A stretch of 58,051 nt of DNA, taken from the NCBI GenBank assembly GCA_002067895.1, contig MVRE01000023.1, positions 1 to 58,051 on the forward strand. The letters run 5' to 3'. The DNA comes from Methanoregula sp. PtaU1.Bin051 (GTDB taxonomy: Archaea; Halobacteriota; Methanomicrobia; Methanomicrobiales; Methanospirillaceae). This document shows, piece after piece, positions 38,181-52,470 of the stretch (the first letter of the stretch is position 1; every line of letters starts with the position of its first letter). The notes under the pieces were generated by a model. It ran no database searches, was not told where the DNA came from, and worked only from the letters and a program-made list of their open reading frames with translations. The position numbers and the translations under genes are program-made.

Positions 38181-39428
38181 TCATTTGCGGAACCTTGAGA
38201 TCAAATCCGAAATGAAATTTGTCAGGATCTCAAAGAGCGAGGATGCCTTTTTTTCCGGCTTGATCTCTTCCGTCGGGACCGGTGTCGCTATAGAAGTAAC
38301 AGGGGGAGGCGTGGTTGTTGGTGTTGCCGTGACCTGTGCCGTTGTTGTCTGGTTCAGGATCATGATGGTGACAACGGGGGCTGCCGTTTCCTGTTCATAG
38401 TACCCGACAGATCCCTGAGTCGCAAACCAGAGCCGGCCCTTTGCGTCCATAAAGAGCCATCGGACAATTGTTGATGTACCGATCCCTTCAAACCGCCCGA
38501 GATAACCGGCAACCACCCCATCCCGCCAGAAAAATATCCCGTCATCCGTGCCTATGTACAAGGTTCCGTCAGTCCCGGCAGCGATATCGTTGATTTCCAC
38601 CTGCTTCTGCGTGAGATCCGATACCGTGAGGACTGGTACCCAGTCCCTTGCCGGTGTGTACCGGGTCACGGCACTTTCATTAAAGAAATAAACGCCTCCC
38701 ATCGGATCCTGCCTCACGTGGTTGCGGAGTGGAAGCACATTTGTATCAACATCGATCCGTAAAAACGTAACAGGGTCAGCCTGAGAAGGTATCATCCAGA
38801 TTCCGTTATTCTCTGTAGCGATGATGAGGGAATCGTTCCTCGGATCCAGTGCCATGCTGTCGATATCGTAAAAGCCGGGACCGCCTTTTGAGAACGGCTG
38901 GAACCAGGTCCAGGAGCCATTGGAAACCCGGTGGATCGCAGTACTGCCGGTTGCCACCCACATTGTCTCACCCCAGCGCTGGAACGCTTTGATCCGGGTA
39001 TCTTTCAGGAGCTGCTGGTCACGGATTGTCTGGTATGTTGCCCCGTTGAAGATCTGGATGCCCCCGGAATACCCAATCCAGAGGTTTCCCGCCGGATCAT
39101 ATTCGATCGCGGTGATGAAGTCATCCAGCAGCCCCTCGCTGAGGTTAACGCGGTTCACATGGCGGGTGCTCCAGCTTCCGTTGTAGTCCGATAGCCCGAA
39201 TGCGGTCGCAAAAAGGACGTCCCCGCTCTTTCCGTTGATCGCATCGTTGATCTGGTCACTGTGGATGAAGCCGGAAGCCGGTATAAAAAGCCGGATTACA
39301 GGAGATGGCGATGCCTGTCTGTCTGCAGATGATACCGTCATGTTTGCCGTACTGGCAAGAGCGGGTACCGAAATACAGCACAGCGCCAGGACAACGCAGA
39401 CGATATCAGATATCCCTGCTCGAACCAT
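38181..39428 (-). CDS. Secreted beta-propeller protein at the end of the chemotaxis operon
   Basis: The 415-residue protein has a signal peptide (cleavage near ALAST, about residue 26) and two-component-regulator-propeller-like repeats. Examples are DPAGNLWIGYSGGIQIFNG, TDGTLYIGTDDGIFFWRDG and DAKGRLWFATQGSVGYYE. A Thr/Pro-rich linker follows, then a short amphipathic C-terminus (SLFEILTNFISDLISRFRK) with no clear transmembrane segment. No histidine kinase or other output domain is attached. Its start codon overlaps the 3' end of cheD by 23 bases, so it is the last gene of the che operon. It may be an exported sensing or structural module, which is inference. Confidence 0.75.
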   Translation of the reverse strand: MVRAGISDIVCVVLALCCISVPALASTANMTVSSADRQASPSPVIRLFIPASGFIHSDQINDAINGKSGDVLFATAFGLSDYNGSWSTRHVNRVNLSEGLLDDFITAIEYDPAGNLWIGYSGGIQIFNGATYQTIRDQQLLKDTRIKAFQRWGETMWVATGSTAIHRVSNGSWTWFQPFSKGGPGFYDIDSMALDPRNDSLIIATENNGIWMIPSQADPVTFLRIDVDTNVLPLRNHVRQDPMGGVYFFNESAVTRYTPARDWVPVLTVSDLTQKQVEINDIAAGTDGTLYIGTDDGIFFWRDGVVAGYLGRFEGIGTSTIVRWLFMDAKGRLWFATQGSVGYYEQETAAPVVTIMILNQTTTAQVTATPTTTPPPVTSIATPVPTEEIKPEKKASSLFEILTNFISDLISRFRK

Positions 39429-44039: not shown

Positions 44040-44849
44040 TTATTTGACCTGGCTCTTTGTTGCGTCCGAGATATACCGTACCCCCTTCGTAGTGAGCTGG
44101 ATCTCGCGCCTTACAGCAACGACTTCGCCGAGCTGGAGGTTCAAGATCCTGTCGTAAATCGCATCAAGTTCCTTATGAGGGATGTTCAGCATGTTCTCGA
44201 TCGCATGCGAGTCCATCCCGGAATAGACAAGCATTGCCACTTGCTGGCCGACAGCATCCAGCTCATTGCCCTTCATATCCATACCTTTCGTGGCATCTTT
44301 TAAGAAGTTGAAGAGCACCTGAAGGGTCGAGATCGGGCAGAGTACCTGGCTCGACACGACCTCCCCTGCATCGACATGGTCGATACATATGATATCGGTT
44401 GGTTTTCCCTGTACCTCCGTCTTGGTCAGTTCGATAGCTGCAGCGTCCATCAGGGGTACGCAGACCTGTTTTGCGGGAGAGACAAACCAGATGCCCGTGC
44501 GCACGACAACGATACTGCCTTTTTCCCATGGAGCTCCCTGGATGAGGACACCGCCTCTGATAGCCGGTGACTTGAAGTAGGCGGCGAGACGGTAGGCATT
44601 GCAGGAATTCAGGATTAGTTTCTTTAAAATCTCAAGAACTTTGTCGACAGATTTTACCTTGACAACACCCTCGGCCTGGGTCTTGAACGTGATGATAAGG
44701 GTATTCTTCCGTTCTGCAAGATCGACAACGGTTTTATACAGGATCTCCTGGTTGACAGGGTCGGGAAGGACAATCCTGTCCTCTGCAATTCCCAGCTTAA
44801 TGACGACCCATGCCTTGTTATGTTCGACCTTTGCCGGTACCTCTTTCAT
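44040..44849 (-). CDS. cheF: Archaeal taxis protein CheF
   Basis: The 269-residue protein matches CheF (DUF439), the archaea-specific adaptor between the chemotaxis system and the archaellum motor. It includes WVVIKLGIAEDRIVLPD, GVLIQGAPWEKGSIVVVRTG (in part), VCVPLMDAAAIELTKTEVQG and a winged-helix-like C-terminus (HAIENMLNIPHKELDAIYDR). GTGAGGG lies just upstream of its ATG. It sits between the arl and che blocks. Confidence 0.9.
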   Translation of the reverse strand: MKEVPAKVEHNKAWVVIKLGIAEDRIVLPDPVNQEILYKTVVDLAERKNTLIITFKTQAEGVVKVKSVDKVLEILKKLILNSCNAYRLAAYFKSPAIRGGVLIQGAPWEKGSIVVVRTGIWFVSPAKQVCVPLMDAAAIELTKTEVQGKPTDIICIDHVDAGEVVSSQVLCPISTLQVLFNFLKDATKGMDMKGNELDAVGQQVAMLVYSGMDSHAIENMLNIPHKELDAIYDRILNLQLGEVVAVRREIQLTTKGVRYISDATKSQVK

Positions 44850-44920: not shown

Positions 44921-46249
44921 TTACTTGGGGGGAGACTTCTTCCCGGCAGCAGAGGTCCGCCGTTTTTTCTGTTTCTCTGTCGCTGCATTCAGTGTCTTAT
45001 GAAGTTCGGTCAGTTCCGTCTCGATCTCTGTTCCCGGCGCACGGAAATCCTTGAGGTCACGCAGGAGACTTAAGTCCTTCTCTTTCTTTACTGTCTTGAT
45101 GCTGGCAGCAAGTGAGCTGAGCATATCGTCGTCGCCACCGGATGCTGCGGCAAATGCGGCCATCTCCTGCTGTTCGGATCGGCCTGTATCTATTGATGAT
45201 GCCGGGATCGGAGCTGCTTCTTTGGGCAACGAAACATTGGGAGCTTCTGCAGCAGCAGGGGCGGGTGCCTGAGGAGCAGAGGCTGTGTCCTCCATATCTT
45301 CGTCCTCATCCAGCTCGACAGAATCAAGGCTGATGCTGTCCAGATCCCCAAGATCCCCTTCAGACGAAGAATCAAGGCCTTCGAGTGAAGGAAGATCGCC
45401 CCCAAGATCCTCTCCGCTTGCCTTCAGGATATCATCGGCAGCGGCAGAGATATCATCGAGAGAAGCCGTTTCACCCGGTTCTCCTGAAGGAGTACCAGCT
45501 TCTCCAGCCTGATCCATGAGTGCACCTCCTGCAGGTTCCCCGCCTTCTTCCAGAGATGCTTTTGTAGCGGTCTCATCATCATCAAGACCATCGAGCAACC
45601 CGGCATCAAATTCTTCACCCGAAAGAGACAGGAATGGATCTTCTTCACCAGGGGTTATGGATGGTGCTGTACCGGCTGCAGCCCCTCCGGATGATGCGGA
45701 CGGAGCCTGGCCAGGGGAGGTCATTTTTGGGGTTGCATGTGCTTCCACCTTTCCGCTGACTGCCAGATCGAGCATATTATCGATCTTCTTCAGCTTGTCC
45801 GGATCAGCTTTTTTCCGTGTTGCGAGGAGGGTGCCCAGCGATTTTAAGGATGAGATGAAGGAGTCGGCATGGAGAGAAAGCCCGGACTTCTTGCCGGCAG
45901 CCGGTTTCGGTGCTGCCGGGGAGGGCTTTGCACTTTTCCGTGCAAACAGGGAGCTGAAACTGAATCCGCCGGCTTTTTTTGGGGACGGGGGCTGGCCGGG
46001 GGGTGTCTTTGCTGCAGGTTTCTTCGCGCCGGCGCCAGCCGGCGTTTTTTCCTTCTCTCTTTTTTTAAAGATGGTTCCAACAGATTTCAGATCGGATAGA
46101 GTAATTGCCCCTAGCAGGATTAAGAGAACGATGCCGACAGCTACGATTGCGGGAATGATTATGAGAAGTGGAAGGTCGAAGAAGATCAGGACAGATCCCG
46201 CAGTAACAATGGTACCGAAAATCAGGATCCTGCGTACACGTTCGTTCAT
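44921..46249 (-). CDS. Uncharacterised acidic membrane-anchored protein of the archaellum operon
   Basis: The 442-residue protein has two transmembrane segments at its N-terminus (about residues 8-25 and 28-48), then a long low-complexity, probably disordered region. This runs from a Lys/Pro/Ala-rich part (KKPAAKTPPGQPPSP) to a strongly acidic Ser/Asp/Glu/Leu part (DLGDLDSISLDSVELDEDED). The end is helical (DLSLLRDLKDFRAPGTEIET, then ELTELHKTLNAA). It is encoded between arlJ (13 bases) and cheF, so it is likely part of the motor or its positioning. I do not recognise it. The cytoplasmic location of the tail is inferred from positive residues after the second segment. Confidence 0.7.
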   Translation of the reverse strand: MNERVRRILIFGTIVTAGSVLIFFDLPLLIIIPAIVAVGIVLLILLGAITLSDLKSVGTIFKKREKEKTPAGAGAKKPAAKTPPGQPPSPKKAGGFSFSSLFARKSAKPSPAAPKPAAGKKSGLSLHADSFISSLKSLGTLLATRKKADPDKLKKIDNMLDLAVSGKVEAHATPKMTSPGQAPSASSGGAAAGTAPSITPGEEDPFLSLSGEEFDAGLLDGLDDDETATKASLEEGGEPAGGALMDQAGEAGTPSGEPGETASLDDISAAADDILKASGEDLGGDLPSLEGLDSSSEGDLGDLDSISLDSVELDEDEDMEDTASAPQAPAPAAAEAPNVSLPKEAAPIPASSIDTGRSEQQEMAAFAAASGGDDDMLSSLAASIKTVKKEKDLSLLRDLKDFRAPGTEIETELTELHKTLNAATEKQKKRRTSAAGKKSPPK

Positions 46250-46262
46250 GAGATCTTCCTTC

Positions 46263-47888
46263 TCACCTGCCAGACATGTTTGTCAGAGCCTCGGGGTTGA
46301 AGAATATACCGACAATCATAGGCGTTACCACCATAACCAACCCAGTCAGTATACAGAATATTGCTGCGTAGAAGTAATACATATACCGATCGCCACCCCC
46401 CACAATCTTTGCAGCCAGAATATTGGAGATCGTGATGATAGTAAGAATGACTGCGACATAGATCCCCATCTCTTTTTCCGGGAAATTGGTAAACATGCCC
46501 ATTCCCGCACCAAGGGTACCGCTCGCTGTCACACCACCGGCACCGGAAGCCGACGAAGCACCGGCCGCCGCAGTTGTTTCCTGGAAATGCTGCATCATGG
46601 TACCGACTGAAGTGGTCAGGGTAACCATGATACGGTAGAGGGCAACAAAGATGGCAGCCATGACCACGTGCATTGGGATCATCAAAAGGATAAACCCGCG
46701 GGCGATCATGTCTTTTTTATCCCGGAGGAGCACCATTTCGAGCATGGAAGACCCGACCGTTTTCCCGATCGGTTCAGGGGGTCCGCCAAGCTGGACTGTG
46801 TCGAGGTAAATATTGAGATACATATTGATCAGGTTACTTCCCGATTCGCCGATGAACCGGTCCCATGTCGGCCGTACCTCAAGACCAAGGTTCATCTTGG
46901 AATAGACCGAGTTTAAGAGATCTTCAAGAGCCATGAACGACTTCCTGTCGATCGCTCCAAGAGCATGGACGGCTGTTGCGCTCTGTCCCCCCATGATCGA
47001 GCCGAAGCTCCGGATGAACGTGGCAAAATCATTGTCCCGGAGCGTGATGTTATGGTCGTCGATAAACCCGATGATGCCAAGCGGGGCAAGGAATATGCCG
47101 ATCATAAGGTAAATGAGCCCGACCGGTACGCCCAGTACTAGTATCACCAGACCAATCACTACCGTGATTGGTAAGATGACACGTTCCATTGTACGGATTG
47201 TAATCTGTTCCTTGGAAGCCCGTTCAGTAAGACCATGAGTCTTAGGATCGCCGGGGACAGACTGATACATAAGGATAACGCCGAACGCGCAGATGGCAAG
47301 GATGATCCCATATGACATGTTCAGGGTCCCTTCCATGCCGGTCGGAGAATAGATCGCGATTGAGATCATGATGGTGACTGCAATCACGGTTCCCGACAGC
47401 AGCATCGCAACATAGGCATCACCCCATTTCTTGACAAGCTCGCAACCCTGCTCGTACTGGCTCCGGTATACGCTCCGGATGGTGTTCAGTTCCTGGGAAA
47501 GAAATTCATCATCCGGAACATTGGACTCGATTGCATTGGCATATCTCATAAGCATATTCTGGAGTGTAGGATTGGTGGTCCGTTCTGCGACAATGCTTAA
47601 GGACTCCGAGTAACTGAAACTCCATTTCTTGACAAATGTATCGACTTTTGCGATGTACTTTGAGCTGATGTACTCCTCTCTCTGAGACGCAAACGCGAAG
47701 ATCTCGGGGCGAGTGGCATTCGCCATCGACATCGACGCCATATAAGTCATCATGAACAGGATGTCGGCGCCCATCTTCTTATTCTCGGCAATCAAGGCAA
47801 GTTTTTGTTTGAGTGAAGCGATACTGGATTCAAAAGGAAGTTGGCCGCCCGATGATGCCCTGATCTTGTCCTTGACAGATTCAAACAT
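46263..47888 (-). CDS. arlJ: Archaellum membrane platform protein ArlJ (FlaJ)
   Basis: The 541-residue protein has the two T2SF-type cytoplasmic domains and about eight transmembrane segments typical of ArlJ (MFESVKDKIRASSGG; EYISSKYIAKVDTFVKKWSF; GQSATAVHALGAI). It forms the membrane platform on which ArlI acts. It starts three bases after the arlI stop. A Gly/Ala/Ser linker (about residues 440-465) interrupts the last membrane part and is longer than usual. Confidence 0.94.
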   Translation of the reverse strand: MFESVKDKIRASSGGQLPFESSIASLKQKLALIAENKKMGADILFMMTYMASMSMANATRPEIFAFASQREEYISSKYIAKVDTFVKKWSFSYSESLSIVAERTTNPTLQNMLMRYANAIESNVPDDEFLSQELNTIRSVYRSQYEQGCELVKKWGDAYVAMLLSGTVIAVTIMISIAIYSPTGMEGTLNMSYGIILAICAFGVILMYQSVPGDPKTHGLTERASKEQITIRTMERVILPITVVIGLVILVLGVPVGLIYLMIGIFLAPLGIIGFIDDHNITLRDNDFATFIRSFGSIMGGQSATAVHALGAIDRKSFMALEDLLNSVYSKMNLGLEVRPTWDRFIGESGSNLINMYLNIYLDTVQLGGPPEPIGKTVGSSMLEMVLLRDKKDMIARGFILLMIPMHVVMAAIFVALYRIMVTLTTSVGTMMQHFQETTAAAGASSASGAGGVTASGTLGAGMGMFTNFPEKEMGIYVAVILTIITISNILAAKIVGGGDRYMYYFYAAIFCILTGLVMVVTPMIVGIFFNPEALTNMSGR

Positions 47889-47891
47889 GGA

Positions 47892-49760
47892 TCAGGCACC
47901 GATTGTAAGCAGGCCCTGTTTCTTGATCTTGGTGATCATATGGAAAAGATCCCAGAATTTTACATAGCCGGCCTTGTGGAGTCGTTCGAGGATCTTCGCC
48001 CGTTTATCGACTTCGTCGTAGATTTCAGCCTTTCTCGCATCGGGAATCCCCAGCATCGTCGCAATCTTATTCTCAAGCAGGTAGGAACTTCCCTTGCCGG
48101 TCCAGACAAAGGTGTCTGAGACCGGCTCCCATATAAACATCCCGACAAATGTGAATCCGCCGGTCTCGGGATTGTACCCGACAAGTTCGTTCAGACTGAT
48201 CATCCGACGGACGGTCTGCCCGTCAGGGCGTTTTACAGCACTCTGGATAAGGACAAGGTTTAAGTTATCGACATAGGTCTTAGGAATATTGATGGGGTCA
48301 CCGCAGAGACGCTGGATCAGCTTCTCGACAGATGCTGCGTGGAAGGTACTCATAACAGGGTGACCTGTCTGCATCGCACCGAATGCGACAGCTCCTTCGA
48401 CACCACGGATTTCGCCAACAAGGATCTGGTTCGGGCGCTGACGGAGGGCAGCCTTAAGCAGATCGAACATCGTCACTTCACCGCCAGCGCCCGTGCCCTC
48501 ACCCTTCCCCTTTGCAAGTGCAACTTCACGAACCCAGTTCCGGTGGGGGATGTTCAGCTCCGGCGTATCTTCGATAGTGACGATCTTATTCTCCGGGGGA
48601 ATGAAAGTAGTTAATGCATTCAGCGTTGTTGTCTTGCCGCTTGCCGTTTCACCGGAGACGAACATTGACATCCCATACTCGATACAGATCCAAAGATAAG
48701 CAGCGACCGTATAATCAAGACCCCCGCTCTCGATGATATTCATGACAGAGAGGGGAATCTCGTTCACCTTACGGATCGTAAAATTGCTGCCGTGCCGTGA
48801 GACGTCTGTCCCGTACACGATGTTGATACGGGAACCATCAGGGAGTGTTGCATCGACAAGCGGGCTCCGGTACGTGATGGGGCGCTTGATCTTCTCTGCC
48901 AGTTTGACGACAAACTCGTCGAGCTCTTTCGAGACTTTGAACTCGATGACCGATTTTAAGCCTTTGAAGATCTTGTGCTCAATGAAGATCGGCCCGACGC
49001 CGTCACAGGAAATATCCTCGATATAGGAATCGGAGAGGAACGGTTTTAATGCTCCCATGTCAATTTTGTCCCTGATTAAGAGGTATTCGATCGCCCGGAA
49101 TTCCTCCGGTGTAAGGATCACCCTGCCGTCCGGGGTCACAGGTACATTGATCGAAGACCGGCGTTTCTTCATCTTTTTCTGGGCGGTAAAGTCGGTTTTT
49201 AAAAATGTCGTAAGCTTTGATTTTACATCCTGCTCCTCCTTATCGCCACCGGTCAGCTGTTTGAGGTCCATGTTCTTGGGTTTGACAACAGCGATGGTGG
49301 AGAACATCTTTTTTAGGACATCCGCCCGTTCCTGGTCGGTCCTCGGATCGTTCTCCAGCCCGTCGATAAGATCGATCAGTTTTCCCTCGATTACGGGCAT
49401 GAGGTCATAGACACTGTGCAGGAACGAGGGTTCGATAGGGATGTAAAAATTCCGCACATCGTCCGGGTCCGGGAGGATGTGGACAAAAGTAGTCTCATTG
49501 ACCGGATAGATCAGGTTCCATGTCTTCATCGAACGCAGGTCTTTTTTCAGCTCCGAGAGGAAAAGGGGAATACCATAGGTATTGACAGGAAATGTATGGA
49601 GGTACTCCAGGAGATGGGGGCTTGTCTTTACGTACTCCTTTGCATTCTCGGGCAGCATCTTGTAAAGCGTTGAAGATTCGATATCGCCATAGATATCAAT
49701 GGAGTCATCGAGCTTCTCCGGTTTAAAAGGGAGGTTGATGGCAACGGATAGGGTGCCCAT
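47892..49760 (-). CDS. arlI: Archaellum motor ATPase ArlI (FlaI)
   Basis: The 622-residue protein is a type II/IV secretion-superfamily ATPase. The Walker A sequence is GETASGKTTTLNAL, then IEDTPELNIPHRNWVRE (Asp box), Walker B QILVGEIRGVEGAVAFGAMQ (in part) and the His box TGHPVMSTFHA. An extended N-terminal domain of about 250 residues is present. It powers filament assembly and rotation together with ArlH and ArlJ. It lies three bases after arlH. Confidence 0.95.
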   Translation of the reverse strand: MGTLSVAINLPFKPEKLDDSIDIYGDIESSTLYKMLPENAKEYVKTSPHLLEYLHTFPVNTYGIPLFLSELKKDLRSMKTWNLIYPVNETTFVHILPDPDDVRNFYIPIEPSFLHSVYDLMPVIEGKLIDLIDGLENDPRTDQERADVLKKMFSTIAVVKPKNMDLKQLTGGDKEEQDVKSKLTTFLKTDFTAQKKMKKRRSSINVPVTPDGRVILTPEEFRAIEYLLIRDKIDMGALKPFLSDSYIEDISCDGVGPIFIEHKIFKGLKSVIEFKVSKELDEFVVKLAEKIKRPITYRSPLVDATLPDGSRINIVYGTDVSRHGSNFTIRKVNEIPLSVMNIIESGGLDYTVAAYLWICIEYGMSMFVSGETASGKTTTLNALTTFIPPENKIVTIEDTPELNIPHRNWVREVALAKGKGEGTGAGGEVTMFDLLKAALRQRPNQILVGEIRGVEGAVAFGAMQTGHPVMSTFHAASVEKLIQRLCGDPINIPKTYVDNLNLVLIQSAVKRPDGQTVRRMISLNELVGYNPETGGFTFVGMFIWEPVSDTFVWTGKGSSYLLENKIATMLGIPDARKAEIYDEVDKRAKILERLHKAGYVKFWDLFHMITKIKKQGLLTIGA

Positions 49761-49762
49761 GA

Positions 49763-50494
49763 TCAGACCTTGGCAAAGCTCATCGGGATGATCTTCATGC
49801 CATACCCGGGGTGGACCTCAAAGCTGACAAGGTTACCTGTCGTCTTATGTGCTCCGCGGACTTTGATAACTTCCATCACCATGATATACTTGTCCCCCAT
49901 GATCGCCTTCTTCATGTTAAGGTGTGCATCACAGATCGACCGGATACGGACAAGTGTGTCCTCTTCGAACGCATAGGTGTGGAGCGTAATCAGGATAGTC
50001 TTGCCATGGTCGACGAGCGACTTGCAATTGGTGAAGAACGTGAGGATGGAGTCGGATTCAGCATATTCCGTGAAGAGCGTTAAGGAATCGATCACAGCGA
50101 CCTGGGCCTTGCTCTCCTGTATCTTGTTGATGACCCGCTGCAGGATACCCTGCATCTCATCTTTTGACCATTCGAACCCGACAACATGAAGCGGGAATAC
50201 TTTGAGGTATCCCCAGGCAAAGTAATCTGATATATCAAGGCTCATGGACTCCATCTGCTTGATGAAACTCTTTGTCGTGCTCTCTGTGGTGTAAAGGTCT
50301 ACCGAGAGCCCCTGCTTCATCGCCCCCCACATGATCTGCTGGGTGAGCACGCTCTTTCCGGTATCGTTCTCGCCCTCGATAAGGGTCAGTGACTGGAGTG
50401 GAAGGCCATCGGCGATTTTCTTATCTAATTCAGAATTACCTGTAGAAACGATTTGTTTGTCATCGCCACCCATCAGATCAGCAATGCTGGCCAT
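49763..50494 (-). CDS. arlH: Archaellum regulator ATPase-like ArlH (FlaH)
   Basis: The 243-residue protein is a KaiC/RecA-fold protein. The Walker A is GENDTGKSVLTQQ (residues about 40-47), and Walker B is VAVIDSLTLF with an altered catalytic glutamate, as in ArlH, which binds ATP but hydrolyses it poorly. It stabilises the motor with ArlI. It has GTGAG upstream. Confidence 0.94.
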   Translation of the reverse strand: MASIADLMGGDDKQIVSTGNSELDKKIADGLPLQSLTLIEGENDTGKSVLTQQIMWGAMKQGLSVDLYTTESTTKSFIKQMESMSLDISDYFAWGYLKVFPLHVVGFEWSKDEMQGILQRVINKIQESKAQVAVIDSLTLFTEYAESDSILTFFTNCKSLVDHGKTILITLHTYAFEEDTLVRIRSICDAHLNMKKAIMGDKYIMVMEVIKVRGAHKTTGNLVSFEVHPGYGMKIIPMSFAKV

Positions 50495-50502
50495 ACGTCA
50501 AC

Positions 50503-51030
50503 TCACCGGATACTCACTGTATATGAAGAAGTTACACCATTCGGGGTGCTGACACTGGTAAAAGATCCTGAAACAGGCGGATTTACCAAGAAGCTGTCAA
50601 TATGGACCCACATCATCTCTCCGGGGTCGAGCATATCGGGATGGATCACCTCATTTGTGAGTCCGTCCGTTAATGTGATTTTGGAATATGTCCAGGTTTT
50701 TGCGGCCTCGGTACCCGTTGTCTCATCGTAAGAATACTTGGCCGGATTACTTCCGGGAATAGTAAGAAAAACATCCATATGTTCAAAGTCACTTATCGGT
50801 TCGTTTCCGGTATTTGTAATATTCAAATAGATATTTGTTGAACCTGTCTGATACTCGATATCTGAAATGTTGATGGCTGTCCGCATTCTTGCCTCATTTT
50901 GCTGCGTAACCTCTTTCTGGGTATTTATAATCTGATCGGCCGTCGACAAGGTGCTGCCTACAACAAGATATGCAACAATAATCAGCATCAGGATGCCAAT
51001 TGCTGCTCCTATCATTTCGCCAACAGCCAA
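50503..51030 (-). CDS. arlF: Archaellum stator/periplasmic protein ArlF (FlaF)
   Basis: The 175-residue protein has one N-terminal transmembrane helix (AAIGILMLIIVAYLVVGSTL) and a beta-sandwich domain (IYLNITNTGNEPISDFEHMD). It fits ArlF, which anchors the motor to the S-layer. The start codon is TTG with GGTGAT upstream. Assignment between ArlF and ArlG was made by sequence style and position, as both share a fold. Confidence 0.75.
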   Translation of the reverse strand: MAVGEMIGAAIGILMLIIVAYLVVGSTLSTADQIINTQKEVTQQNEARMRTAINISDIEYQTGSTNIYLNITNTGNEPISDFEHMDVFLTIPGSNPAKYSYDETTGTEAAKTWTYSKITLTDGLTNEVIHPDMLDPGEMMWVHIDSFLVNPPVSGSFTSVSTPNGVTSSYTVSIR

Positions 51031-51039
51031 TTTATCACC

Positions 51040-51540
51040 TTAAACGATAGTGAATTCGACAGATCGGTATACTCCATTGGGTAGTACAAACTGGAAATAC
51101 GCCAGCTCACCTGCAGCGTCCAATACATCGTTACGCGCAGTAATCTCGATTGTTTCACCGGTATCCCAGAGATTATTGCTGTTTTGATCATCGAGCTGGA
51201 AAGTCCACTTTTGATTGGTAGTTGTCGGATCACCGAGAGCTGCCCTGGCAAAATTCCCGGACGATCCGATAAAAACATCCGCTCCGTTTTGTATCTCGGA
51301 AATTCCTACGGGATTTGAACCTATATTTTTTATCCAGACTTTCACCAAGTGGGTTGTACTGGATCCATAAGTGTTTACAATCTTAAAGTCCGTTCTCATC
51401 CGCGTATCGGTTTCGTGCGCCGAGGAAGAGAACGTGCTGGCAGTGCTCCAGACAATCGGGTAGACCGCATTTATCAGGATACCTGCTGCTACGACTGCTG
51501 TTATGATAAACAATGCAGATACAAACGTATCGGCAGACAT
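51040..51540 (-). CDS. arlG: Archaellum stator protein ArlG (FlaG)
   Basis: The 166-residue protein has an N-terminal transmembrane helix (FVSALFIITAVVAAGILINA) and a beta-rich outer domain (LVKVWIKNIGSNPVGISEIQ; GADVFIG) with the strand pattern of ArlG. Together with ArlF it forms the S-layer-bound stator. It begins three bases after the stop codon of arlCDE. Confidence 0.78.
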   Translation of the reverse strand: MSADTFVSALFIITAVVAAGILINAVYPIVWSTASTFSSSAHETDTRMRTDFKIVNTYGSSTTHLVKVWIKNIGSNPVGISEIQNGADVFIGSSGNFARAALGDPTTTNQKWTFQLDDQNSNNLWDTGETIEITARNDVLDAAGELAYFQFVLPNGVYRSVEFTIV

Positions 51541-51543
51541 TGG

Positions 51544-52470
51544 TTAGATCCTGTCAGGGAGGTTCATCCAGTCTTCTTCGAATTCTTTCTCTTTCTGGGA
51601 TCCCTTGTCTTTGGCCGGGGCAACCGGGAACTCGACTTGGCTATGGGATGCTGCTGGAACGGCCTTGGGAGCCTGCAAACGCTGTTCCATCATGACCTCG
51701 ATCATGTCGCGGTCAAGAGTTGTGTCATCCGGTGCGATGATCCGGTTGAGTGTGTAAAGTTCTGAAACGAATTCATCAGGCCCAACTTCATGTTCATCGC
51801 CGATATTGGCCGGCATAAGGCGAGCGATCTCCCGGATTTCATCACATGCTTCCTTGCTGATATACCCCATTGTCTTGTATGACTGGAGCATAATCTCAAG
51901 CCGGTCATGACCGTATTTCCGTACAGCCTGGTTTGTCCACTTGAAGAGTTTGTATACCTTCTGGAGCCGGAACTTCTCTGAAGGCCGGGAGACCGGTGTC
52001 TTATCAGTGGCGGTTTTTGTGTCCATCAGCTGGGAGCGGAACTGGGCAAGGAGCTGTTCGTCGATGATCCGGCGTTCGTCAGTTGTAGAAGGCAGGGGCG
52101 CAATCTGCGAGGTGGCATCTGGTTGCTCCGGCTTAACTGCATGTTCAGAGGTCGCCTTCTTTTCCTGTGCTTCTGCCTGTGTCTTTTCTGCGTTGAGCTC
52201 TGCTTCCTTGGCCTCAAGGGCGGATTCCCTCGCTTCAAGTGCTGCTATTTTTGCCTCGTCTTCGGCAGAAGATCCATCGCCGCCACCAGTTATTGCTATC
52301 GTAAACGGGTTTTCCAGTTCATTCATCCGCTCCCGGATATCCATGAGCAGGCGTTTTATCGAAGTTTTGATAAGGTCGACTTCCCGTTCGAGGTTCTGCA
52401 TCTTCACCTCTGGGTCGTCTTCTGATGCGGCAGTGATGATATGGTCTACCTGAGCCTGATTTACCGCCAT
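51544..52470 (-). CDS. ArlCDE fusion protein (archaellum switch component)
   Basis: The 308-residue protein combines an ArlC-like coiled N-terminus (EREVDLIKTSIKRLLMDIRE then LENPF) with a Glu/Ala-rich coiled linker. The C-terminal ArlD/E-like helical domain reads FRLQKVYKLFKWTNQAVRKY, YISKEACDEIREIARLMP. In halophiles and methanococci these are separate genes. ArlCDE is the docking site for CheF/CheY. The start ATG 52470 was chosen because a longer frame adds a non-conserved hydrophobic leader. It heads the motor operon, with an AT-rich promoter (TATATC, TTATTAA) upstream. Confidence 0.88.
   Translation of the reverse strand: MAVNQAQVDHIITAASEDDPEVKMQNLEREVDLIKTSIKRLLMDIRERMNELENPFTIAITGGGDGSSAEDEAKIAALEARESALEAKEAELNAEKTQAEAQEKKATSEHAVKPEQPDATSQIAPLPSTTDERRIIDEQLLAQFRSQLMDTKTATDKTPVSRPSEKFRLQKVYKLFKWTNQAVRKYGHDRLEIMLQSYKTMGYISKEACDEIREIARLMPANIGDEHEVGPDEFVSELYTLNRIIAPDDTTLDRDMIEVMMEQRLQAPKAVPAASHSQVEFPVAPAKDKGSQKEKEFEEDWMNLPDRI

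Follow-up and report, generated by a model that had tools for sequence, protein, structure and literature searches.

The archaellum cluster of the window

The window, a stretch of 58,051 nucleotides from contig MVRE01000023.1 of Methanoregula sp. PtaU1.Bin051, carries on its minus strand a run of genes in the order archaellins, ArlCDE-type, two ArlF/G-like, arlH, arlI, arlJ, an unnamed gene, cheF, cheY, cheB, cheA, cheC and cheD. The unnamed gene encodes a protein of 442 amino acids, and the working label X is used here for both gene and product. It occupies positions 44921..46249 as an open reading frame of the minus strand, the same interval containing many stops when read on the plus strand. 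The preliminary description had placed it between arlJ and cheF inside the archaellum operon, and this position holds: immediately upstream lies arlJ, encoding the motor platform (46263..47888, minus strand; NF004703, 698 bits, cut-off 570), whose stop is separated from the start of X by 13 nt, and immediately downstream lies cheF (44040..44849, minus strand), identified by homology. The PF04283 profile gave no match to the window's own CheF, which shows 70-78% identity to CheF of the closest genomes, the copies in G017 and G064 being among the PF04283 matches.

The remaining genes of this operon-like run, also on the minus strand, follow the usual arl order. The arlI ATPase gene (47892..49760) and arlH (49763..50494) have matching genes in relatives, for arlI within their arl clusters, and the two stator-type, arlF/arlG-like genes (50503..51540) were recognized by Arch_flagellin (PF01917) and weak ArlF/ArlG matches. 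An ArlCDE-type switch protein, encoded from 51544 to 52470 or 52545, scores 20.3 bits with Arch_fla_DE against a cut-off of 21, and relatives encode a homologue of it in their arl clusters. Since this gene is encoded separately, X would be an additional component. A 415-residue protein with a Reg_prop (two-component-regulator-propeller) match is encoded after cheD (38181-39428, minus strand), closing the che/arl run of the window.

Domain structure of X

An AlphaFold2 model, built with 29 homologues, and counts of charged residues agree with the anatomy first proposed from the sequence, namely two membrane helices, a basic Lys/Pro stretch, acidic disorder and C-terminal helices. Residues 1-50 (46100..46249, minus strand) form an N-terminal two-helix membrane hairpin, with helices at 3-23 and 28-46 (pLDDT ~89) and the motif RR-x3-F-x6-GS-x5-D-x-PL, in which G18 is invariant and R7 nearly invariant among 29 sequences. 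Because the loop of the hairpin is short and basic residues border the hairpin on either side (MNERVRR before, KKREKEK after), the positive-inside rule suggests that both ends of X are cytoplasmic in Methanomicrobiales. Residues 51-166 (45752..46099, minus strand), delimited by composition, the model and a conserved motif, are rich in Lys, Pro and Ala, with 24 Lys and Arg to 8 Asp and Glu. The stretch is closed by a predicted helix pair (125-146/150-165, pLDDT ~60) that carries a KIDxxLD motif, whose I, L and D are kept in ~90% of the aligned sequences.

The acidic linker of ~190 residues that follows (167-357; 45179..45751, minus strand) has 6 Lys and Arg to 44 Asp and Glu, a pI of 4.1 and a pLDDT mostly <50, and includes the short conserved motifs DPFLSLS-x-EEFD-x-GLL and LD-x3-LD. 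The C-terminal helical tail, of the SLLRDLKD-x8-E-x2-L type (residues 358-432; 44954..45178, minus strand), is the element common to several orders. Its helices (358-367, 373-400 and 406-432) are modeled with moderate confidence (pLDDT about 60-82), its charge is mixed, and F366, R397 and L413 are invariant and L395 nearly so in the 29 sequences. Conservation across the alignment is thus confined to islands, comprising the hairpin, KIDxxLD, DPFLSLS/EEFD/GLL, LD-x3-LD and the tail, and such a pattern of short motifs in disorder with one conserved terminal domain would be typical of scaffolds. The gene as a whole has a dN/dS of 0.12-0.18 and the tail one of 0.05-0.11, and as judged from these sequence comparisons X is under purifying selection. 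A chance open reading frame is ruled out by the full-length homologues that many genera carry at the corresponding position, the synteny and the dN/dS values.

No known family accounts for the protein. Pfam and NCBIfam gave no above-cut-off match to the window protein or to the 29 members used for the family check, the PDB holds no relative by sequence or by fold, and a structure search with the model of an Archaeoglobus-type relative returned no structural match. With the absence of similarity to ArlCDE profiles, these results agree with the initial impression that no named Arl or Che component has this form, and the search brought up no unrelated family to which X might have belonged. A match to MetOD2 (PF18548) was rejected, as it reached 12.6 bits against a cut-off of 30.6 in one of the 29 members and was absent from the other 28. 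No description of X was found in the open-access literature.

Distribution in Methanomicrobiales, and unusual copies

A scan of contigs with the single X protein yielded only one relative because the linker diverges fast, and whole-genome profile searches were needed. The X profile, searched against 150 genomes of the same order, found X in 110 genomes, representing 29 of 35 genera, and a true arlJ (above cut-off, or as clear fragments) is present in 111. Both genes occur together in 110 genomes and neither in 39, X never occurs alone, and the single genome with arlJ alone (G090) has a partial arlJ; for 20 of the X-negative genomes, the pairing with the arlJ result was made by subtraction. The profile search proposed earlier for locating homologues relative to arlJ and cheF showed the order arlJ-X-cheF, on one strand, in nearly every locus examined. 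Nearly all loci have between -8 and +49 nt from the arlJ stop to the X start, a 4-nt overlap being common, so that translation of X is often coupled to that of arlJ and both products are probably made together.

Two damaged copies were found. In G001, the X homologue (L076:4512-6248) is split, in an intact-looking arl cluster, by an insertion sequence of ~1.7 kb that has 13-nt inverted ends (CAGTACTTTAAAC) and a transposase-like open reading frame of 388 residues (L076:4846-6012). In G017, presumably Methanoregula boonei, the homologue (L013:1501-2753) is frameshifted into two overlapping frames, reflecting either natural decay or a sequencing error. As both genomes are archaellated, X may be dispensable or conditional. 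In G454 the conserved tail occurs twice, the additional copy being truncated and encoded in a 110-residue open reading frame (L060:6189-6518) ~12 kb from the archaellum cluster.

Relatives outside the order

In the rest of the phylum, the full X profile gave weak matches, essentially to the C-terminal part, and the surrounding DNA showed archaellum clusters. A profile of the tail (61 columns), searched against 393 genomes of the phylum, matched 104 of them, including 36 outside the order, among them members of Archaeoglobaceae, Methanosarcinaceae and Methanocellaceae. Every one of these 36 has its match in an arl cluster (34 loci were read, and G383 and G446 are adjacent by coordinates), and since the search made no use of position, this location is independent evidence. 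The gene lies 3' of arlJ in 35 of the 36, twice after a gap of ~650 nt, and the remaining case is G360 (L090), in which X lies between arlH and arlI. Rather than being scattered, homologues thus combine archaellum synteny with a conserved C-terminal helix both in the order and in 36 genomes beyond it, the pattern that had been put forward as support for a motor role.

Comparison of profiles confirms the homology of the tail across five groups, with hhalign probabilities of 84-98% against at most 3.2% for reversed and mid-protein controls of the same pairs, and the X proteins of Archaeoglobi and Methanosarcina align over 208 columns at 99.3%. The predicted membrane anchor consists of two helices in Methanomicrobiales, whereas the groups outside the order have a single one. 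For a relative from a genome of 2,178,400 bp, which we take to be Archaeoglobus fulgidus, the model has the same plan, with a membrane helix (2-29), a helix (41-62), disorder and a tail hairpin (160-187/192-210). G536, presumably Methanosarcina acetivorans (the organism names of relatives are provisional), carries a member in its cluster near 3.79 Mb, which fell short of the genome-search threshold (E 5e-5 in a separate comparison).

The family has limits. Two haloarchaeal-type loci (L110 and L113) contain no X, and arlJ is followed there by a MinD-like open reading frame or a CheF-like protein; as haloarchaea do without it, X is not universally needed. In the second-type clusters of Methanosarcina (L095-L101) and in the f10 genomes (L102-L107), the proteins encoded directly after arlJ look unrelated but resemble X in build, with a basic or amphipathic start, an acidic linker and a leucine-rich tail, and score 2-10% and 0.5-33%, respectively, in profile comparison to X. 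They were left out of X membership and are possibly very diverged relatives or functional replacements. These limits fit the fla1/fla2 division of clusters in the literature, in which Methanospirillum, Methanosarcina and Archaeoglobus, lineages that also carry the X family, are grouped as fla2 (Desmond et al., 2007; PMC1914349). In the passages of that study consulted, hyp1 and hyp2 between flaB and flaG are treated as FlaD/E-like and the gene after flaJ is not discussed, although Figure 2 may show it as a hypothetical gene without a name (PMC1914349). X accompanies this type of archaellum throughout in several archaeal orders, which makes it very probably an overlooked part of the machine.

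Motor or taxis function

The coupling of X to arlJ and their one-to-one presence make it highly likely that X is a dedicated archaellum component. G360, a single contig of 99% completeness, bears on the kind of component, as it encodes arlB, arlCDE, arlF, arlG, arlH, X, arlI and arlJ and gave no match to CheF (PF04283) or to a CheW domain; G237 (86% complete) has an arl cluster with X and likewise no CheF or CheW match. X can therefore exist without a taxis system, its central function probably belongs to the motor and not to taxis, and it is unlikely to depend on CheF. A number of archaellated genomes (G348, G355, G418, G484, G500, G422, G363 and the f10 genomes), most of them with CheW-domain proteins, also have no CheF match, although some true CheF proteins, the window's own included, escape PF04283.

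G360 and G237 also weigh against the proposal that X works first of all as a taxis adaptor, tethered to the membrane so as to bring CheF, and with it CheY-P, to the ArlCDE switch, and serving mainly in switching. The cheF gene lies directly 3' of X in Methanomicrobiales, and CheF was found in most of the sampled genomes that carry X and in 0 of 19 sampled archaellated genomes lacking a recognized X (f10 and f24; Methanosarcina with only the other cluster type), a correlation made unreliable by the CheF proteins that PF04283 misses. However, the retention of X with the arl cluster in G360 and G237, the finding that cheF is not the gene next to X in groups beyond Methanomicrobiales, and the coupling of CheF in haloarchaea, which manage it without X, render this role unlikely. 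The tight junction with arlJ (-8 to +49 nt) and the strict co-occurrence could also be expected of an assembly or stability factor for ArlJ, such as a co-translated chaperone or platform partner outside the finished motor. That possibility appears remote, given that an acidic linker of such length with its conserved motifs, together with the conserved tail in the cytoplasm, would exceed the needs of a chaperone and that X sits between arlH and arlI, not after arlJ, in L090.

Resemblance to bacterial polar-organizing proteins had been suggested in general character only, and it goes no further than that. HubP and FimV share with X a membrane anchor, an acidic unstructured cytoplasmic region and a conserved C-terminal helical domain; the acidic region of FimV has a pI of 3.75 (PMC12918733), and the corresponding region of X, of low pLDDT, a pI of 4.1. 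The build is thus held in common (PMC12918733), but the domains are not: no Pfam or NCBIfam match to a C-terminal FimV or TPR domain was found in 29 X members, and X has no match to LysM or another periplasmic domain, with only a few residues between its two membrane helices. That X might mark the pole and place motors and receptor arrays there is accordingly rather improbable, and its strict linkage to arlJ and absence from the arlJ-less genomes of the order are better explained by a part tied to one machine. At most, the likeness to HubP and FimV would be analogous.

A proposed membrane-tethered scaffold of the archaellum motor

The reading that we favor, and consider reasonably probable, is that X belongs to the arl2/fla2-type archaellum of methanogens and Archaeoglobi as a dedicated component not described before, and that it acts as a membrane-tethered scaffold. 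The idea of a motor-associated scaffold in the preliminary description finds support in the synteny and the conserved tail; membership in the assembled motor, scaffold function, topology and docking partner are inferred. In this arrangement, the N-terminal helices (a single anchor helix outside Methanomicrobiales) would hold X in the membrane beside ArlJ, and the long flexible acidic linker with its short motifs would lead to the conserved helical-hairpin tail in the cytoplasm. The tail would dock on a conserved cytoplasmic part of the motor (ArlI, ArlH or the membrane-less ArlCDE ring), tethering it to the membrane around ArlJ, and the linker motifs could gather further clients, for example CheF.

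ArlCDE, which is thought to replace ArlX, lacks the transmembrane domain of ArlX (PMC8978795), making a separate membrane tether plausible; whether X supplies this missing tether is close to an even question, leaning toward the negative. ArlX, a crenarchaeal scaffold proposed to surround ArlI and ArlH, resembles X in its transmembrane-helix anchor, its cytoplasmic domain and its origin from the arl cluster (PMC8978795), and models predict the same N-terminal membrane helix and cytoplasmic domain in X. By published description, ArlX comes closest to X in functional terms. The gene positions differ, arlX being found toward the archaellin/arlG end of fla2 clusters and X after arlJ. ArlX also assembles into a ring, and in Euryarchaeota ArlCDE is considered to have taken its place, whereas X coexists with an ArlCDE protein.

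ArlC, ArlD and ArlE of the switch ring are, like X, cytoplasmic archaellum parts tied to taxis, with acidic low-complexity stretches, but a separate ArlCDE protein is encoded in the same clusters as X. Identity with them was rejected, as hhalign of five X groups against 21 ArlCDE proteins gave probabilities of at most 0.2%, and X lies 3' of arlJ, the slot between the archaellins and the arlF/arlG pair holding a separate ArlCDE gene. More tentatively, the euryarchaeal arl2/fla2 motor may possess X as an additional universal subunit, a disordered membrane-tethered scaffold that anchors the ArlCDE ring (or ArlI/ArlH) to ArlJ and supplies the part played by ArlX in Crenarchaeota.

Implications

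Two questions about the euryarchaeal motor are open: what keeps its cytoplasmic ring at the membrane, and which of its parts are static (PMC8978795). As a conserved, membrane-tethered protein with near-perfect linkage to arlJ, present in the presumed genome of the genetically tractable Methanosarcina acetivorans, X makes these questions testable. X would, in addition, serve as a marker of arl2-type clusters, perhaps also of the archaella whose transfer to Chloroflexota has been reported (PMC12488501).
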